Assembly: GCA_019694595.1 (NCBI GenBank)
Contig: JAIBBQ010000022.1
Span: forward strand, 1 to 55,142
Source: Myxococcaceae bacterium
GTDB taxonomy: Bacteria; Myxococcota; Myxococcia; Myxococcales; Myxococcaceae
Direction: 5' to 3'
DNA length: 55,142 bases
In this document: positions 3,759 to 12,273 of the stretch, in pieces
Layout of the letters: the number at the start of each line of letters is the position of its first letter
Position numbering within the stretch: the stretch's first letter is position 1
Position numbers and translations under genes: made by a program
The notes under the pieces: generated by a model
Seen by the model: the letters and a program-made list of their open reading frames with translations, nothing else
Told to the model about the DNA's origin: nothing
Database searches by the model: none

Positions 3759-4849
3759 GGAATGAAGAAGAACGCCACCGCGAGAATGGCGTACAGCCCG
3801 AGCAGCATCGCGCCTTCGAGCCAGTTGGACTCGCCGTCGATGGCGATCAGCGCCGCGCCGCCCACGCCGACCGCCATGCCCATCACTTCCATGTGGCTGA
3901 ACTCGAGCGTGAGCGGGTGCCCCAGGGGGTAGGACGCCAGCACCAGCACCGGCGCCACGAAGAGCGCGATCTGCTTCGAGCTCTCGAACGCGATGTTGAA
4001 CGCCAGGTCCATCTTGTTCTTGAGCGCCATGATCACCGCGGTGCTGTGCTCGGCGGCGTTCCCGATGATGGCGATGATGATCACACCCACGAAGGTGTGG
4101 GTGAAGCCGAAGCTGGCGATGGCGGGCTCGAGCGCATGCACCAGGAGCTCGGCGGTGATCACCACCCCCACGGTGCTGCCCAGCAACACCGCGACCGCCT
4201 TCTTCTGCGACCAGGGCGGCAGCTCTTCCTCGGTGCCCTCGTCCTCGCTCGCGTACAGGTGCTTGTGGGTGCGCAGCGCGAAGATGAGCGACAGCACGTA
4301 GATGACCAGCAGCACCAGCGAGATGCCGACCGACAGCTTGCCCATCACCGGCAGCCCGGCGTCGCCCCGGGTGAGGTGGAAGAGGTCGGGCACGCTCATC
4401 GCGGTGACTGCGAGGAACATCATCGCCGCGCCGGAGAGCGCCGCCGTGGTGTTGAAGGTCTGCTTCTCGCGCGTGAGCCCACCGGTGATGATCGCCGCGC
4501 CCAGCACCAGCAAGATGTTGCCGAGGATCGCGCCGGTGATGCTCGCCTTGACCACCTCGGTCTGCCCTTCGCGCAGCGCTGCCACCGCGATGATCAGCTC
4601 GGCGGCGTTGCCGAAGCTGGCGTTCATCAGGCCACCGAGGCCCGAGCCCAGCTTGTGGGCGATGACCTCGGTCGCGGTGCCCATGAGCCTCGCCAGGGGC
4701 ACCAGCGCCAGCGCGCAGAGCACGAAGGTCGGCGTGCCGGGGAAGAAGAAGTGCGAGGCCACCGCCGCGGGGAACGCCACCGCCAGCAGGGTGACGAAGA
4801 TGCGGTCGGCGGTGGACCAGACGCGGTCGGTCGGGGGCGCGGCGCTCAC
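3755..4849 (-). CDS. CAX-type calcium (cation)/proton antiporter
   Basis: A 364-residue transporter of the Ca2+/cation antiporter superfamily. It has two inverted repeats, each carrying the cation-binding alpha motif: GNAAELIIAVAAL in the first half and GNAAEHSTAVIMALKNK in the second, followed by a conserved SSKQIALFVAPVLVL segment. The two Glu residues in the GNAAE motifs are the expected ion ligands. An acidic loop between the halves (about residues 198-208, DEGTEEE) is typical of the family. It should exchange Ca2+ for H+ across the inner membrane. Start is GTG at 4849, 24 bases after the S24/S26-like gene on the same strand, and the stop overlaps the EamA start. Confidence 0.93.
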   Translation of the reverse strand: MSAAPPTDRVWSTADRIFVTLLAVAFPAAVASHFFFPGTPTFVLCALALVPLARLMGTATEVIAHKLGSGLGGLMNASFGNAAELIIAVAALREGQTEVVKASITGAILGNILLVLGAAIITGGLTREKQTFNTTAALSGAAMMFLAVTAMSVPDLFHLTRGDAGLPVMGKLSVGISLVLLVIYVLSLIFALRTHKHLYASEDEGTEEELPPWSQKKAVAVLLGSTVGVVITAELLVHALEPAIASFGFTHTFVGVIIIAIIGNAAEHSTAVIMALKNKMDLAFNIAFESSKQIALFVAPVLVLASYPLGHPLTLEFSHMEVMGMAVGVGGAALIAIDGESNWLEGAMLLGLYAILAVAFFFIP

Positions 4850-4873
4850 GAGGCGCCGGGCTTTACCAGAGCC

Positions 4874-5692
4874 TCACCGCTTGAGGGTGACGGTTCGCGG
4901 CGTGAAGTCGTGTTCCCGGAAGCCGTGTGCCCTGAGCGCTTCCACGAAGCCCACCTCGCGCGTCGGAACTTCGGCCGACGTCACCAGTTCCGGCACGTCG
5001 AGCGAGCCCACCAGCCGCTCCTCGAGGCCCAGGTGCCGCGCCCAAGCGGCCAGGTGGGCGTGGGCGAGCACTCCGCCTTCGGTCCGCACCAGGGTACCGG
5101 CGACGCCCAGGCGCGACTCCGCGAAGCTCACCCGGCCATGGGTGAGGAGCCGCTCGAGGTGGGCGGGGCTCAGCGTCTCGAAGTGCGAGAGACCGATGGC
5201 GAAGTGTTCCAGCTCGGTGCGATCGAGCGTGCGAACGCTGACGCCCAACGCCGGTCGGCGCAGGCTGCCGGTGCCCGGCCCGAAAAGCGTGCTCACCGCC
5301 ACGTGCCAGGCCGCGCGGGCGAGCGTCGAGCCTTGCGCAGCGGCGGCCGCCAGGTGCAGCGGCCAGACCAGCGCCCTGACGTACGGCGCCTCCACCGGTC
5401 CGCGGCGCACCCGACGCACGGCACCGAGCAGCTCGAGGCCCGGCGCATCTTCAGGGCCGAGGAACCCACAGGTCCTGAGTGGCTCGACCCCGGACACGAC
5501 ATGCGTCACCAGCGCGCCGTCACCCCGGAGCAGCACCGCCGCGTCGCCGGGCCCGACCGCCGCGCCCCGCTCGAACTGCACCTCGTCGCCGCTCACCAGG
5601 AGCGGCCACATCGAACTGCCCCGCACGCGCACCCAGCGCTTCACACCGGGCTGAAGCGCCCGGAGCAGCAGGCCGAGCGGCGGCACACTCAC
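4874..5692 (-). CDS. S24/S26 signal-peptidase-like protein with a C-terminal domain of unknown function
   Basis: A 272-residue protein. Residues about 18-75 resemble the signal peptidase/LexA fold: VRGSSMWPLL has the G-x-S-M-x-P nucleophile motif (Ser27), SGDEV and GPGDAAVLL follow, and His64 in VTHVV occupies the place of the catalytic His in Ser-His type signal peptidases (SipW/ER type) rather than a Lys. It lacks a clear N-terminal membrane anchor. The remaining 190 residues form an unrecognised domain. The GTG start overlaps the kinase stop (GTGA at 5689-5692), so the two proteins are probably made together. In this context it is a candidate leader-removing protease for the adjacent small peptide; that is inference. 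Confidence 0.72.
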   Translation of the reverse strand: MSVPPLGLLLRALQPGVKRWVRVRGSSMWPLLVSGDEVQFERGAAVGPGDAAVLLRGDGALVTHVVSGVEPLRTCGFLGPEDAPGLELLGAVRRVRRGPVEAPYVRALVWPLHLAAAAAQGSTLARAAWHVAVSTLFGPGTGSLRRPALGVSVRTLDRTELEHFAIGLSHFETLSPAHLERLLTHGRVSFAESRLGVAGTLVRTEGGVLAHAHLAAWARHLGLEERLVGSLDVPELVTSAEVPTREVGFVEALRAHGFREHDFTPRTVTLKR

Positions 5693-6417
5693 CGCGACGC
5701 CACCCAGTCCCGGAGGAACGCTCCGACCGCGACGTCCTTGCGGAAGGTGAGCCGGAAGACGCCGACGGAGGCAATCAGCGCCAGCACGCGGCGGCGCAAC
5801 TCGCTCACCGCCGGCGCCCCCGGGAACGGCACCCAGAAGAGCTGGGCGAAGAGCACAGCGCACGCCTCCTCGGTGCCCACGGGGGTCAGCGCCTCGCGGT
5901 TCCCCTTCTCGAGCAACAGCAGGCCGCGCAGCGCGACCGGACCGGGGGCGCCCACGTTCTCGTGGTTCGAGCGAAACGGCGAGCCGAACAGCGTCCCGTC
6001 GGGGAGCAGCTGGACGATCTCGTCGGTCAGCAGGGTCGCCCGCCCCGGTGGGTGCGCACACAGTGCGGCGAGCGTCGACTTTCCCGCCCCGCTCTGGCCG
6101 ATCGCTGCCACGCCTCCGGCACCGAACCCGACCGCGCTCCCATGCATCAACACCCCCCCCTGCTCGACGGTGAGCCTCTGCCACGCGAGCCGGAGCACGC
6201 TCTCTGCCGCCCACACGTCATCTGGGATGAGCGCGCGGAGTTCGCGGCCTTCGCAGGCCACGTATCCCCACGGCGCCTGCGACCCGCTGAGCGGCTGCGC
6301 CCGCTCTCCATGGAGTGCGCTGGCGCGCGTCACGTCGAGCTGGGTCGGAACTTCGTCGACCTCAAACGGCCCCAGGTGGACTCGGCCTCGCGAGAGCTGC
6401 GCGAGCACCGGATCCAC
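5689..6417 (-). CDS. HPr-kinase-like (HprK-related) serine kinase
   Basis: A 242-residue protein, if the GTG at 6417 is the start, with the C-terminal fold of HPr kinase/phosphorylase. HGSAV (residues 92-96) precedes the P-loop GQSGAGKST (107-115), and LLTDE (129-133) supplies the Walker-B-like acidic pair. The N-terminal 85 residues are a divergent beta-rich domain. Relatives include kinases that phosphorylate lasso precursor peptides (ThcoK type) and uncharacterised HprK-related proteins found with PqqD-like genes. A longer frame from 6549 exists but would run through the Cys-rich peptide gene; GTG at 6408, with GGTGGA upstream, is another possible start. It is coupled by GTGA to the signal-peptidase-like gene. 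Confidence 0.82.
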   Translation of the reverse strand: MDPVLAQLSRGRVHLGPFEVDEVPTQLDVTRASALHGERAQPLSGSQAPWGYVACEGRELRALIPDDVWAAESVLRLAWQRLTVEQGGVLMHGSAVGFGAGGVAAIGQSGAGKSTLAALCAHPPGRATLLTDEIVQLLPDGTLFGSPFRSNHENVGAPGPVALRGLLLLEKGNREALTPVGTEEACAVLFAQLFWVPFPGAPAVSELRRRVLALIASVGVFRLTFRKDVAVGAFLRDWVASR

Positions 6418-6440
6418 CGCAAGGGCCCCGCGGCCACACC

Positions 6441-6617
6441 TTACGGGCAGGAGAACTCGTCCGGAGCGCAGAACGAACCGTCGCCGAAGCAGTCGAACGG
6501 CGTCGGCCCGTTCGGGCTGCACACCATCAGGTTGGTCGGCACCGGGCACCCGTGCGTACGGATCACCGGCGGCACCCAGAGGGCCTTCTTCTTCGGGGTC
6601 TCAGTGTTCAGTGCCAC
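6441..6617 (-). CDS. Cys-rich small peptide, candidate RiPP-like precursor
   Basis: A 58-codon frame not noticed by ordinary length cut-offs. It starts with GTG at 6617, preceded by GGAAAGGTGAG as ribosome binding site, overlaps the last bases of the giant lipoprotein gene, and ends with TAA 23 bases before the kinase start. The N-terminal part is polar (NTETPKKK) and leads into W14-V-P-P17-V-I19-R-T-H-G23, which fits the YxxPxLxxxG leader motif recognised by PqqD-like RRE proteins, with W for Y and I for L. The remainder has five Cys (24, 33, 43, 50, 57), several Pro and Gly, and ends SCP. Almost all codons (53 of 58) end in G or C, like neighbouring genes. No secretion signal is seen. The precursor role is inferred. 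Confidence 0.7.
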   Translation of the reverse strand: MALNTETPKKKALWVPPVIRTHGCPVPTNLMVCSPNGPTPFDCFGDGSFCAPDEFSCP

Positions 6618-9600
6618 AGGCTCACCTTTCCGGGAGATGCATTGTTGTCGCTGATCGCGAGGTCGGGCTTCGAGTCACCGTCGAAGTCGCCGAAGACCAT
6701 GTCCACCAAGTTGGCGGTCGAGCTCTGGATCCGCGAGGTCCAATACCCGCCGCCGCACTGGGTATCGAAGCTCCCCTGGCGGGCGTAGAAGAGCCAGCCA
6801 GACGCGTTCGAGCCCAGCGTCTCGGTGATGGCGAGGTCGTTCTTGCCGTCGCCGTTGACGTCGGCCGAGCGGATCGCGTTGCCGAAGCCCGCCGCGCAGC
6901 TCACGGTCAGCGAGGGCGACGACGAGAAGCCGCCCGCGGTCGACGAGTCGTGCAGGTCGACGAAGCCGTCGAACACGTTGCCCACCGCGAGATCCGCCGC
7001 AGTCGACCCCAGCAGGTCGACCCCGCCGAGCGCCGACACCGAGTAGCCGTTGAACTGGCCCGCGCGGCCGTTCGAGCCGCTCGTCACGCGCGAGAGCGTC
7101 TGCAGCGCGTTGTTGGCGACCGGGCTGTCACCCGTGAGCAGCGGAGTGCCCGCCGACGAAGCGCTGATTGCTGCCGAGGTGAAGAGGAACATCTTGTTCA
7201 CCAGGTTGGAGACCCCCGGAATCGTGAGGTCGGCCCGCCCGTCCCCGTCGAAGTCGGTCACCGCGGCGAAGCCGTTTCGCGCGCGGCCGAAGTAGGCCAC
7301 GGTGGTCGCGGTCTGCACCGGACCTTCGATGATCCAGTTCGCCGCGCTGGTAGGGATCACCCCCCCGACCTTCGCCGCGTTCCAGTTCGCCTGCGACCGG
7401 CCCTTGTAGATGTAGATGCGGCCGCGGGGCGTGCTCTCGCTCGGCGCCGCCACCGCGATCTCACCGAGGCCGTCGCCGTCGAGGTCCTGGATCGCACGGA
7501 CCGCACGGCCGAACGAGGTGCCCGCCGCGCTACCGCGGAACTCGACCACCGACGCGGTGTCGATGCTGGTCGTCGAGCTACCGAAGAAGAGGAACGCGCG
7601 GCCGGTGGCCCCCGAGTACGTCGAGTCGCTCACCAGGAGGTCCGGCTTGTTCTCCGCCGCCACGTCACCCACCTGGCCGACCGACACGTCGGTGCCGAAG
7701 TTGTCGGTGGTGGCGCCGCCCGGAAGGTCGATCGCCTGGCATGCGGGCAGCGTGCAGGTGCTCGAGGCCGTGAAGAAGCTCGCGCTGCCGAAGTACACGT
7801 ACACGCGGTTGGCCGACTCCGCCGAGACCACCAGGTCGTCGAGCGTGTCGCCGTTGAGCTTGCCCACCGCCATCTGCCGGCCGTACGCCGCACCCGCGGC
7901 TCCCGGGTTGGTCAGCACGTCGAACAGCGCGTTGCCGAAGGTCGCCGACGGCCCGGAATACGCGGAGTAGTTCCCCACTTCGTCGATGGCCCGGACCCCC
8001 ACGTAGTAGGTATTGAGCGGCGGCAACGTCAGCACGCGGTCGATGGTGCTGGCGCTGTAGGCGGAGTTCGACTCCGCGTTGGCGCCGAGCCAGTCCGACT
8101 CCGCCACCAGCGCGTGCCCGTTGGTCACCGACGACGTGGTCCACCGCACCTCGTAGCCCTGGTGGGCGCGGGCGTTCCCCGCCCCGACGAGGTCGTCGAA
8201 GGTCGGCGCCCAGCTGAACTTCACCGTCGCCGCGCGACGATCGACCGCCGACGCGGTGACCGTGGGCGCACCGGGCGGTTCCACGTCGACCTGCGCGCTG
8301 GCGCTGGTGGGCGAGACGCTGTTGCCCGCCTCGTCGCTCACGCGGATCTCGAACGTGCCCGTGGTGTCGTGGGTGAGCTGTGCGGCGAAGCTCAGCGTCG
8401 TCTTGGGGTCGGCGTCGACCGCCACGGCGGCCCCCACCGGAGTGCCCTGGTAGTAGAGCTGCACCGCGCCGTTGAGCGCGCCGGTGATGCCGTTCACCGT
8501 CACGGTGAAGTTCGCGGGCGCCCCCACGGTGGAGTCGACCACCACCCCGGGGCTGCCGACGTTCTTGTTGGTCGCCGCCACGAAGGTGAGCGTGGTGCCC
8601 GCCGGCGTCGCGCTGGTGACCGACGGAGGCGTCAGGTCGACGATCACCGGCGTCAGGTCGACGTCGGTGGTCACCCCGGCGCCGTTGTCGATGCGCAGCC
8701 GCAGGGTGACCGGCGTCGCGCTCTCGGGCAGCGAACCGTTGACGGTGACGTCGCCGTTGCCGTCGGTGAGGCCGGTGCCCAGCGGGGTCCCGTTGCCGAC
8801 CTGGAAGAGCGACACGGTGAGGCCCGCGCCGCAGTTCGAGGTGTGCCCGGTGACCGCGAACTCGGCCGTAGTCGCGGTGCCGGGGTTGGTGTCGGCCGCG
8901 CGGTTGATGAAGACCTTGCCCCCGGCGCCCGCCGAAGGAGAGGTGAACGCCAGCGAGCAGCCCACCGCGTTGATGGAGATGCTCACCGGCGCCGTCGTGC
9001 AGCTGTTGCCGGCGAGGTCCGAGACCTTGGCGGTCACCGTCTGCGCCCCCGAGAACGGGTAGCTCAGCGTGCCGCTCGCGCTGCCGGCGTTCACCGTCAG
9101 CGTGCCCACCGTCTGCGGGGTGCCGGCGCCCTGCTGGCTGAGCACCGTCACCGGCTGGCCGTTCGCGCCGCCCACGGTGACCGTGGTGGGAATGGAGAAA
9201 CTCCCGTACGCAGGGGGCGAGGCGACCGGGGCCGTGATGGCGCAGGTCGGAGGATCGTTATCCACCACCACCCCGGTGACCGGCGTCGCGGTCGCCGTGT
9301 TGCCCGACTGGTCGGTGCACGTGGCCGCCAGGGCGTAGGTCAGGGTCCCGGTGGGCGAGACGGTGAAGTCGTTGGTGGCCGCGCTCTGCGCGACCGTCTT
9401 GGTGGCGGTCTGCGTTGCCGCGCCCGACAGGTCGAACTTCACCGAGGCCCCGTCGGCCGCGGTGGCGACCGAAGCGCGCAGCTGGTAGCCGGCCGTCGCG
9501 CCGTCGGCGTCGTCCGCCACACCGAAGAGCTTGAGCGTCGGCGCGGTGAAGGCGCAGCTGGGCGCCTGCAGGTCGACCCGCACCCCGGCGATGATCGCCT

Positions 9601-11857
9601 CGGCGTCGAGCGGGTCGTCGGTGGTCGCCAGCGCGAGCACGTTGGAGTTGCCCGCGGTGTCGAGTACCTGCACCTCGAGGTCGTAGGTCTGCTCGGTGGT
9701 GGTGACCCCGTTGTTGAGCGTCACCGTACCGGTGGCACCGGTGAGCGAGACGCCTGCCTGGGTGTTGAGGATGCCGCCGCCGATGCGGTCCTTGACCACG
9801 ATCGACGCGATGTTCGCCGCCACGTCGCCGCGGCCCAGGGTCACCGAGAGCTTGGGGGCCTGGCCGCCGAGCTCGGCGATGTTGAGGCGCTTGTCGCCGT
9901 TGGTGTCACCCACCAGCGAGACCGCGCTGAAGTCGGGGCGCACGCCGTCGACGATCAGGTTCAGCACCGCGGAAGCGACCGTGGTCGCCCCCGAGACCAC
10001 CACCACCTTCACGCCGTAGCTGCCTTCGGGGAAGGTGAAGGCCGGGTCGCCCGCCACCTGGCTGCCCTTGAGCACCCAGAAGCCCAGCGTGCCGTCGGGG
10101 CACGCCACCGCGTTGCCCGGCGCCGGCGTCATGTCGGTGCACACGTCGACGCGGCCACCCACCGGCACGGTCGCGGTGTAGTTGAGCGCGCGCTGCACGC
10201 CGGCCACTGCGCGGTTCACGTCCTGGATCGCGTTGAGCACGGTCGGCTGCGGGCCGGTGACCGGGCTGGTGATCACCGGCGCGTTGGTGTCCACCGTGAC
10301 GTCGATCTCGTCGAACGACAGCGACGCCCCGCTGCCGATCTCCACGCGGAACTTGTAGGTCCCGTTGGTCACCGGGAAGGTCCAGCTCGCAAGTCCGCTC
10401 GCGTTGGTGGTGGCCGCGCGCGGGTTGGCGCCGTTGGTGAGCAGCGTCACCGCGGTGTTGTTGCAGTTGCTCGAGGCCTTGAAGGTCGCCGGGCTGGCGC
10501 TGATCAGCGCCGGGCGGGTGTTGGGCTGGGTGAAGACCACGGTGCAGCCGCTCGAGTTCACCGTGAAGGTCTCGGTCACCGGCGCCGAGTCGTTGCCCGC
10601 GAGGTCGGTCGCCACCGCGGTCAGCACGTACGTGCCGTTGAGGAAGTTCGCCGAGGTGGTCGCCTTGCCGGCCGCCACCGTCACCGTACCCAGGTCGCGG
10701 ACCACCGGGCTCTGCGTGGCGGTGTAGTGCACCGTGCCGCCCTCGTTCACGTTCGCGCTCACCGAGATGGTCGACGTCGTGTACGGGCTGCCCGCGGCGG
10801 TCGGCGAGGTGATGGTCACCGTCGGCGGCTTGAAGTCCGCGGTCACCATCTTGGTCGCGGTGCACTTGTTGCCGAGCTCGTCGAGCGCCTCGACCTGCAC
10901 CGTGTACGCCGTCTCACCGGTCGCATCGACGTCGAAGTCGAACGACAGGCCGCCGGCCACCGGGGTCTTCATGCCCGACGTCGCGCCCGCGCCGCCGATG
11001 AGCTTGAGTTCCACCGTCTTGGTGCTGCTGCCCACCGTGGCCGCGGTGCGCAGCTGGAACTTGGCCTTCGCCGGGTCGGCGTCGTCGGCCGGCCCCAGCA
11101 CCGCCTTGGTGGGCGCGATGACCGCGCAGGTCGGCATGGTGCGCTTGACGGTGATCGACGCGCTCGCTTCGGGGTTGGTCGCCGCGTCGTTGCTCAGGGT
11201 CCCCTTGGTGACCTTGGCGAAGAGCGCGTACGTCTTGTCGGTGATGGTGCCCAGGTCGAGGTCGAGCGAGGCGCTGTTGGCGCCGACCGACTGCAACCCC
11301 ACCACCGTGGTGCCGTCGAGCACCTGCACCTGACCGCCCGCCACGCCCTGGAAGGTGAGGTCGACGCGGATCTTCGCCGACGTCGGCAGCTCGGGGCCGG
11401 CGAGCACGCCGTCGCCGTTCAGATCCTGCGGGAACTTGAAGGTCAGCACCTTGGGGGGCGTCGCCTCGTCCACGGTGACGGTGATGGTCTTGCCGCCCAC
11501 GCAGGCGGTGCCCTTCTTCTTCACCGTCGCCTTGAGCAGGTTGGTGCCCGATTCGAGGTGCACGGCGCTGAAGGTGGCCTTGCCCGTCTCGACCGTGCCG
11601 TCGACGGGCGTCGAGAACTCGGTGGAGGTCGACAGGCGGGTGACCAGGGTCGCGGTGTCGAGGTCGATCTTGTTCCCCGCGGTGTCCTCGACCGTGATGT
11701 TGACGTCGGTGGTCGCCGGCGAGGTCTGCCCGTCGGTGGGGTTGGTGAACGTCACCACCAGATCGCCGCACTCATCGGGAGGCGTGCCACAGCTGCAGCC
11801 GTGGAGTGCCGCCACCGACAACGCCGCCATCGCCACCCGGAATGAGAAACGCTTCAT
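6608..11857 (-). CDS. Giant surface lipoprotein with Ig-like repeats, FN3 domain and FG-GAP beta-propeller
   Basis: A 1,749-residue protein starting MKRFSFRVAMAALSVAAL, with a lipobox LHGC at residues 18-21 for lipidation and export. After a Cys-rich start it carries a long series of bacterial Ig-like domains, each about 90-100 residues with recurrent Cys pairs, DxxGN turns and VDxxxP linkers. A fibronectin type III domain (SWAPTF...YVGVRAIDEVGN) follows at roughly 1,285-1,385. The C-terminal third holds FG-GAP repeats with Ca2+-binding loops such as DLDGDGLGE, DFDGDGRAD, DVNGDGKND and DFDGDSKPD, as in integrin-alpha propellers. It probably acts in adhesion or as a scaffold at the surface. 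It lies 95 bases after the PqqD-like gene, and its 3' end overlaps the Cys-rich peptide gene. Confidence 0.9.
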   Translation of the reverse strand: MKRFSFRVAMAALSVAALHGCSCGTPPDECGDLVVTFTNPTDGQTSPATTDVNITVEDTAGNKIDLDTATLVTRLSTSTEFSTPVDGTVETGKATFSAVHLESGTNLLKATVKKKGTACVGGKTITVTVDEATPPKVLTFKFPQDLNGDGVLAGPELPTSAKIRVDLTFQGVAGGQVQVLDGTTVVGLQSVGANSASLDLDLGTITDKTYALFAKVTKGTLSNDAATNPEASASITVKRTMPTCAVIAPTKAVLGPADDADPAKAKFQLRTAATVGSSTKTVELKLIGGAGATSGMKTPVAGGLSFDFDVDATGETAYTVQVEALDELGNKCTATKMVTADFKPPTVTITSPTAAGSPYTTSTISVSANVNEGGTVHYTATQSPVVRDLGTVTVAAGKATTSANFLNGTYVLTAVATDLAGNDSAPVTETFTVNSSGCTVVFTQPNTRPALISASPATFKASSNCNNTAVTLLTNGANPRAATTNASGLASWTFPVTNGTYKFRVEIGSGASLSFDEIDVTVDTNAPVITSPVTGPQPTVLNAIQDVNRAVAGVQRALNYTATVPVGGRVDVCTDMTPAPGNAVACPDGTLGFWVLKGSQVAGDPAFTFPEGSYGVKVVVVSGATTVASAVLNLIVDGVRPDFSAVSLVGDTNGDKRLNIAELGGQAPKLSVTLGRGDVAANIASIVVKDRIGGGILNTQAGVSLTGATGTVTLNNGVTTTEQTYDLEVQVLDTAGNSNVLALATTDDPLDAEAIIAGVRVDLQAPSCAFTAPTLKLFGVADDADGATAGYQLRASVATAADGASVKFDLSGAATQTATKTVAQSAATNDFTVSPTGTLTYALAATCTDQSGNTATATPVTGVVVDNDPPTCAITAPVASPPAYGSFSIPTTVTVGGANGQPVTVLSQQGAGTPQTVGTLTVNAGSASGTLSYPFSGAQTVTAKVSDLAGNSCTTAPVSISINAVGCSLAFTSPSAGAGGKVFINRAADTNPGTATTAEFAVTGHTSNCGAGLTVSLFQVGNGTPLGTGLTDGNGDVTVNGSLPESATPVTLRLRIDNGAGVTTDVDLTPVIVDLTPPSVTSATPAGTTLTFVAATNKNVGSPGVVVDSTVGAPANFTVTVNGITGALNGAVQLYYQGTPVGAAVAVDADPKTTLSFAAQLTHDTTGTFEIRVSDEAGNSVSPTSASAQVDVEPPGAPTVTASAVDRRAATVKFSWAPTFDDLVGAGNARAHQGYEVRWTTSSVTNGHALVAESDWLGANAESNSAYSASTIDRVLTLPPLNTYYVGVRAIDEVGNYSAYSGPSATFGNALFDVLTNPGAAGAAYGRQMAVGKLNGDTLDDLVVSAESANRVYVYFGSASFFTASSTCTLPACQAIDLPGGATTDNFGTDVSVGQVGDVAAENKPDLLVSDSTYSGATGRAFLFFGSSTTSIDTASVVEFRGSAAGTSFGRAVRAIQDLDGDGLGEIAVAAPSESTPRGRIYIYKGRSQANWNAAKVGGVIPTSAANWIIEGPVQTATTVAYFGRARNGFAAVTDFDGDGRADLTIPGVSNLVNKMFLFTSAAISASSAGTPLLTGDSPVANNALQTLSRVTSGSNGRAGQFNGYSVSALGGVDLLGSTAADLAVGNVFDGFVDLHDSSTAGGFSSSPSLTVSCAAGFGNAIRSADVNGDGKNDLAITETLGSNASGWLFYARQGSFDTQCGGGYWTSRIQSSTANLVDMVFGDFDGDSKPDLAISDNNASPGKVSLWH

Positions 11858-11952: not shown

Positions 11953-12273
11953 TTACCGCACCAGTACTTTTTTCTGCACCAACATCGACACGAACGCCGC
12001 CGTCTCCTCAGCACAGCGCCGCGGCTCGACTTCGAACTCCTCGCACAGCACCGAGGCGATGTCCCCCACCGACCGCTTCCCGTCGACCAGCTCGACGATC
12101 CGTGCAGCCACCGGGTTCGGCGCGCCCGATGCGTCATCCAGCGAGTGCAACCCCTGATCGGCCGTCGCCGCCCACACCGTCCCCTGCACCGCCTGAATCC
12201 CCGCCTCCGGGTGCAACCTCGGCACCCAGCTGAGCCGCTCGTCCACCGTGGTCACGAAATCGCCTTGTTTCAA
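11953..12273 (-). CDS. PqqD-family RRE (peptide-binding) protein
   Basis: A 106-residue protein of the PqqD winged-helix fold that, in known systems, binds leader peptides of ribosomally made peptides and presents them to modifying enzymes. Typical features are the N-terminal beta strands (SWVPRLHPEAG, VQGTVWAAT), the helix region ARIVELVDGKRSVGDIASVL, the second helix EEFEVEPRRCAEETAAFVSML, and the terminal strand KKVLVR. The start is TTG at 12273 with a GGCAAGGCG ribosome site; GTG at residue 7, preceded by AAGGCGA, is an alternative. No radical SAM gene is nearby. It is the first gene of the unit that contains the Cys-rich peptide, HPrK-like kinase and signal-peptidase-like protein. Confidence 0.85.
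   Translation of the reverse strand: MKQGDFVTTVDERLSWVPRLHPEAGIQAVQGTVWAATADQGLHSLDDASGAPNPVAARIVELVDGKRSVGDIASVLCEEFEVEPRRCAEETAAFVSMLVQKKVLVR

Follow-up and report, generated by a model that had tools for sequence, protein, structure and literature searches.

A hidden Cys-rich leader-peptide gene and the body of the FG-GAP lipoprotein gene beside it form a hypervariable, exchanged block in Myxococcaceae

A hidden frame of 58 codons in the analyzed window (the whole stretch of 55,142 nucleotides from a Myxococcaceae bacterium) is a real gene coding for a Cys-rich peptide. Together with the body of the large FG-GAP gene next to it, it makes up a hypervariable block, enclosed by conserved flanks, which has been exchanged across genus boundaries. 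About 40 myxobacterial species carry this propeller-peptide pair. We put at about one half (ca. 0.5) the probability that this is a polymorphic recognition locus at which the peptide, leader guided and probably disulfide bonded, is matched to the surface propeller as its partner. The genes follow one another in the order PqqD-like chaperone, FG-GAP lipoprotein, peptide, HPrK-like kinase, and S24/S26 protease fused to a GNAT acetyltransferase. In the window, the features are as follows.

4874..5689 (-), S24/S26-type protease, divergent in its C-terminal half (orthologue profile match, E 1.4e-37)
5689..6417 (-), HPrK-like kinase (AF2 pLDDT 94, PEPCK/HPrK fold)
6441..6617 (-), peptide precursor, 58 aa, GTG start (syntenic relatives, pN/pS)
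6444..6521 (-), core of the peptide from C33 to P58, holding four of its five Cys (alignment, Cys parity)
6555..6593 (-), leader motif KKKALWVPPVIRT (residues 9-21), where the PqqD-like protein is presumed to bind
6608..11857 (-), surface lipoprotein with an FG-GAP beta-propeller and Ig-like domains (Pfam FG-GAP, E 7.7e-23; Big_13)
11953..12273 (-), PqqD-like peptide chaperone (RRE) (PF05402, E 6.5e-12, above the Pfam cut-off)

The peptide gene and its cassette

The frame runs from a GTG at 6617 to the stop at 6441 on the (-) strand and translates as MALNTETPKKKALWVPPVIRTHGCPVPTNLMVCSPNGPTPFDCFGDGSFCAPDEFSCP, with 5 Cys and G/C-ending codons at 53 of its 58 positions, just as the initial annotation had described it. 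The bases preceding the GTG are GGAAAGGTGAGCCT, and GGAAAGGTGAG stands ahead of the start. The overlap with the upstream gene that had been reported is also there, and it amounts to 10 bp (6608-6617) shared with the FG-GAP gene. The gap of 23 bases to the kinase, on the other hand, requires a kinase start at the GTG at 6417. The match to the profile of the kinase family already begins at 6444, so that the peptide and kinase genes more likely touch or overlap, and the kinase may in truth start farther upstream, at about 6444 or past it.

Searching 98 relatives with the single peptide sequence gave mostly chance matches, from which the true ones were told apart by synteny; three were convincing, each immediately behind an FG-GAP lipoprotein gene. 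A profile made from four peptides recovered more of them within the same family; profile E-values in single genomes went down to 1e-20. The peptide gene was directly 3' of the FG-GAP gene in 15/15 loci of the first set, and it was present behind this gene in all 20 further loci (L140-L159), which come from other genera of the family, several of them as single-contig genomes. These have the same cassette, with a peptide of 45 to 53 aa placed between FG-GAP and kinase. Among the loci with organism names (MAGs labelled Archangium, Myxococcus, Myxococcaceae, Archangiaceae or Myxococcales), the peptide appears in every one whose contig runs past the FG-GAP gene, and the two genes adjoin in all complete loci. 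Five close pairs gave a pN/pS of 0.31 (Fisher p 1.1e-5), i.e., the peptide is under purifying selection. Pfam and NCBIfam searches with the peptide returned no match. Spurious long frames are common in GC-rich DNA, but a syntenic family spanning many genera, the profile E-values and the pN/pS leave a chance open frame with a negligible probability, and we discarded it on the grounds of conservation and pN/pS. The initial annotation had named the absence of a conserved frame or Cys pattern in relatives as the outcome that would speak against it; the peptide frame is conserved. It should be mentioned that the window also contains a 2650-codon open frame (3893-11845, +), which runs antisense along the full length of the cassette and is most probably an artefact arising from the high G+C at third codon positions.

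The PqqD-like gene was found in 40/96 genomes of the family and a strong kinase in 37/96, all 37 being PqqD carriers; the presence of the cassette follows genera, so that the 40 carriers are not independent events. The three PqqD carriers without a strong kinase are fragmented MAGs. In most carriers the cassette is single and located at a fixed chromosomal site. A Cys-rich peptide with an RRE-type leader is conserved in relatives within a cassette of PqqD, HPrK and S24 genes, as had been proposed, with one correction to the expected setting: the PqqD-like gene has its conserved position upstream of the FG-GAP gene, not beside the peptide. The initial annotation had also missed the large surface propeller protein as a partner, the GNAT on the protease and the block-wise exchange of propeller and peptide.

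PF05402 scored above the Pfam cut-off in 12/12 PqqD-like proteins tested. As for the kinase, the AF2 model compared with PEPCK gave a Z of about 12 and an rmsd of 4.6-5.5 over about 220 residues, and it matched HprK/P with Foldseek E-values of 2e-4 to 1e-3. His92, the P-loop and an Asp-Glu pair are invariant in 19 kinase sequences. The modeled fold and the P-loop, both shared with the HPrK/PEPCK-fold superfamily, place the protein there, while against the NCBIfam models TIGR04352 (HPr-rel-A) and TIGR04355 (HPr-rel-B) it reached 10.7 and 17.6 bits, for cut-offs of 200. In several MAG lineages (L060, L061, L065 and L160), an HPrK-like gene was found outside the block, some kilobases downstream among conserved housekeeping-type genes. 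The protease orthologues are protease-GNAT fusions (GNAT in L151, PF00583, E 5e-12). The C-terminal half of the window protease had no GNAT match in Pfam, and this divergent half, at the GNAT position, may be inactive. No dedicated exporter gene was seen in the cassette.

Block exchange and co-variation

The comparison of L117 and L118 illustrates the hypervariable block well. Both share about 92% DNA identity until some 850 bp inside the FG-GAP gene, after which nothing aligns before the EamA gene on the far side of the peptide, where identity is back at 90% and then reaches 97.6%. The same pattern was found in L110/L117 and L111/L113, i.e., flanks with 80-97% identity enclose an FG-GAP body and a peptide whose DNA cannot be aligned. 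The conserved kinase of L111/L113 is located outside this block, and the minimal unit of exchange therefore consists of FG-GAP body and peptide; elsewhere, in other genera, the kinase borders the block and is exchanged along with it. That the L111/L113 kinase is unlinked and conserved and the cores differ also weakens any general matching between kinase and core, an idea that we had considered.

Exchange between genera is best represented by L151 (genus g16). Compared with L148, L153 and L154, its identities are 92-94% for Etf, 82-87% for PqqD, 72-78% for the FG-GAP N-terminus and 77-80% for the protease-GNAT, but only 40-51% for the FG-GAP body, the peptide and the kinase. Its kinase is 63-66% identical to a set found in genus g8. 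FG-GAP body, peptide and kinase are of another genus's type within flanks of its own genus. In the PqqD and protease-GNAT trees, L151 groups with its own genus and the close kin g15. Another case is that of L146 and L149 (g8), with about 60-63% identity to L157 and L158 (g18) in FG-GAP body and kinase and an Etf closest to their own genus. AU tests rejected the monophyly of g16 and g8 both for the kinase (1.5e-6 and 2.4e-9) and for the FG-GAP C-terminus (7e-48 and 2e-74), and in the Etf tree, in which g8 is one clade, the two allele groups were rejected (2.3e-4 and 2.5e-4); since the allele groups had been seen before testing, these p values are optimistic. The polymorphism is not equally strong everywhere, as most species of g16 share a near-identical peptide.

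The peptide core tracks the propeller, whereas the N-terminus of the propeller protein itself fails to do so. With Etf controlled for, partial Mantel correlations (16 loci) were 0.80 for FG-GAP C-terminus and core, 0.89 for FG-GAP C-terminus and kinase, and 0.84 for core and kinase, against 0.11 and 0.08 for the FG-GAP N-terminus with core and kinase, respectively; linkage contributes to these figures and is not fully separable from co-adaptation, and physical linkage alone could be enough for neighboring genes to co-vary. In the window's own set (14 loci), core and FG-GAP C-terminus correlated at 0.64 given PqqD (p 2e-4), and leader and FG-GAP C-terminus at -0.12.

Leader, core and the lasso question

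The precursors are short, with a conserved leader and a variable core of 2-8 Cys, as is the case for RRE-dependent RiPPs. The leader follows the consensus [KR][KR]x[Y/W]xxPx[V/I/L]x[S/T]. Among 38 peptides, which are related by descent so that neither motif nor Cys counts are independent, [Y/W]xxP was present in 38/38 and S/T at Y+7 in 36/38, this residue being a candidate site for the kinase. The first part of the YxxPxLxxxG motif recognized in the initial annotation thus stands, but not its terminal G, which at Y+9 occurs in the window peptide only (1/38). The core has an even number of Cys (2, 4, 6 or 8) in 37 of these 38 related peptides, the sole exception (1/38) being the window peptide with its odd 5. 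Between lineages the number changes in even steps, as disulfide pairing would give, and the core is probably disulfide bonded.

AF2 gave no confident fold for the window peptide (pLDDT 72, pTM 0.27). The knottin order of six Cys, C-C-CC-C-C, fits about ten relatives; other genera have two Cys, and the window peptide has five and no CC pair. With a Cys number ranging from 2 to 8 and the window lacking the CC pair, a full knottin assignment was dropped, and so was the reading of the VLLAC stretch as a lipobox, as no hydrophobic signal region precedes it.

The initial annotation had taken the motif as being of the lasso type, which did not survive. A YxxP leader, a PqqD-like protein and an HPrK-like kinase are indeed what phosphorylated lasso clusters contain (PMC8498205, PMC10368454), but the window's genome has no match to PF13471, the transglutaminase-like B2 leader peptidase, and lasso identity was rejected on this feature. 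Some relatives do have PF13471 matches, which lie at a distance from the cassette or on a different contig. By gene assignment, the cassette genes are all something other than an Asn-synthetase-like cyclase. The Gly at Y+9 restricted to the window and an even Cys number, better suited to disulfides than to a threaded ring, point in the same direction, and a lasso precursor appears very improbable. The paeninodin (PMC8498205) and bsf (PMC10368454) clusters resemble the cassette in the YxxP leader, the separate PqqD-like protein and the HPrK-like kinase gene beside a short precursor. They differ from it in that here the genome is without a B2 peptidase match, the protease is of the S24/S26 type (GNAT-fused in the orthologues), the cores are even-Cys, and the FG-GAP gene is invariably present and co-varying. 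The bsf cluster is also bordered by an FG-GAP gene, presumed by its authors to be uninvolved (PMC10368454). Albusnodin, an acetylated lasso peptide with a GNAT in its cluster (PMC8498205), is similar in using a GNAT acetyltransferase as the tailoring enzyme of a ribosomal peptide; in the present case the GNAT is fused to an S24/S26-type protease, without lasso machinery.

Possible roles and related pairs

We propose that the frame gives the precursor of a leader-guided, RiPP-like peptide, whose leader would be held by the PqqD-like chaperone. The HPrK-like kinase may act on the peptide by phosphorylation, and the S24/S26 protease-GNAT, where present, would remove the leader and acetylate the new end or a lysine. 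The released core would be exported and, most likely, closed by disulfide bonds, and it could then serve the surface beta-propeller lipoprotein encoded with it as a matched ligand or subunit. Together, the peptide core and the body of the propeller would make a polymorphic pair that sets specificity and that lineages replace as one block, as would be anticipated for a cell-cell recognition or signalling type.

Two other explanations start from the same genes. The peptide might assist the maturation of the lipoprotein or be built into it as a small structural subunit, with the lipoprotein varying as a surface antigen under phage or predator pressure and the peptide following by fit or linkage. 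The adjacency of both genes in all loci, the co-variation of the peptide with the FG-GAP C-terminus, much of it explicable by linkage, and the repetition of the pairing with other propeller types are all compatible with this. However, a leader, a chaperone, a kinase and a protease-GNAT exceed the needs of a simple subunit, and the correlation is carried by the core and not by the leader that lies between core and FG-GAP, a contrast tempered by the leader being short and constrained; on balance we find this explanation somewhat unlikely. A narrow-spectrum bacteriocin-like antagonist, with the surface lipoprotein as immunity partner, carrier or receptor and the polymorphism deriving from rivalry among relatives, is unlikely as well. 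It would account for a short, processed, Cys-rich peptide among RiPP-like genes and for the polymorphism with a linked partner gene, but it fits poorly with most carriers having a single cassette whose chromosomal position is fixed, with a cassette in which no dedicated exporter was seen, with a partner of 1800-2000 aa, unusual for immunity, and with the conserved cores of several g16 species.

Returning to the peptide as matched partner of the propeller, a similar logic is found in the comQXP and agr pherotype loci of Gram-positive bacteria, where a modified peptide and its receptor, a sensor kinase, co-vary in interchangeable groups that in some cases also include the processing enzyme. Here, by contrast, the partner is a surface propeller lipoprotein without a known signalling domain. 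By analogy, the nearest known systems in logic would be the HPrK-bearing lasso clusters and, for polymorphic self-recognition in the same order, TraA, a receptor of Myxococcales reported as a single recognition locus (PMC6372800). TraA is likewise a polymorphic surface protein with a conserved part beside a variable one and many allele types across species (PMC6372800), but it belongs to another protein family and has no processed peptide partner reported, and for the propeller a role in recognition is a proposal. A literature search, with few subscription journals covered, found no paper that links a peptide of this kind to FG-GAP and PqqD in myxobacteria, and for the cassette as we read it from the sequence no earlier description was found.

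It is tempting to go one step further and see here an undescribed myxobacterial recognition system, made up of a processed, disulfide-closed peptide and a surface propeller lipoprotein exchanged as one specificity cassette (propeller body and peptide core, plus the kinase in some genera), with Kelch- and PQQ-type sister versions, but we hold this only tentatively. At any rate, the results bring to light a family of leader-guided peptides that had been overlooked, as common annotation passes over genes of this length, and that occurs both in MAGs and in complete genomes. If the pairing is true, bacteria used as models of kin recognition and multicellularity would have another polymorphic recognition locus beside TraA, with its specificity sitting in a single swappable block of about 5 kb.

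Six-Cys peptides of the RRE-leader type were also found in L072 (2478-2681, -), L074 (near 8249-8490, -), L178 (7896-8090, -) and L179 (1585-1776, +), directly 3' of a large secreted protein (about 1000-1160 aa for the complete genes). At the C-terminus, the L072 protein has a PQQ/BamB-type propeller scoring above the cut-off and the L074 protein one scoring below it, and the large proteins of L178 and L179 have the C-terminal end common to these two. In 3/4 of these loci an S24-like gene points toward the peptide. In L066, a gene for a Kelch and IPT/TIG lipoprotein (5104-8853, -) lies beside a leader-type Cys-rich peptide (about 8885-9028, -). The pairing of a propeller protein with an even-Cys leader peptide thus recurs with different propeller families. 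Finally, in other families of the phylum (L101, L102 and L103) there were weak matches, peptides in which an E-x-F-x-R stretch and Cys come after a related YxxPxI leader; these possibly belong to another leader-peptide family.
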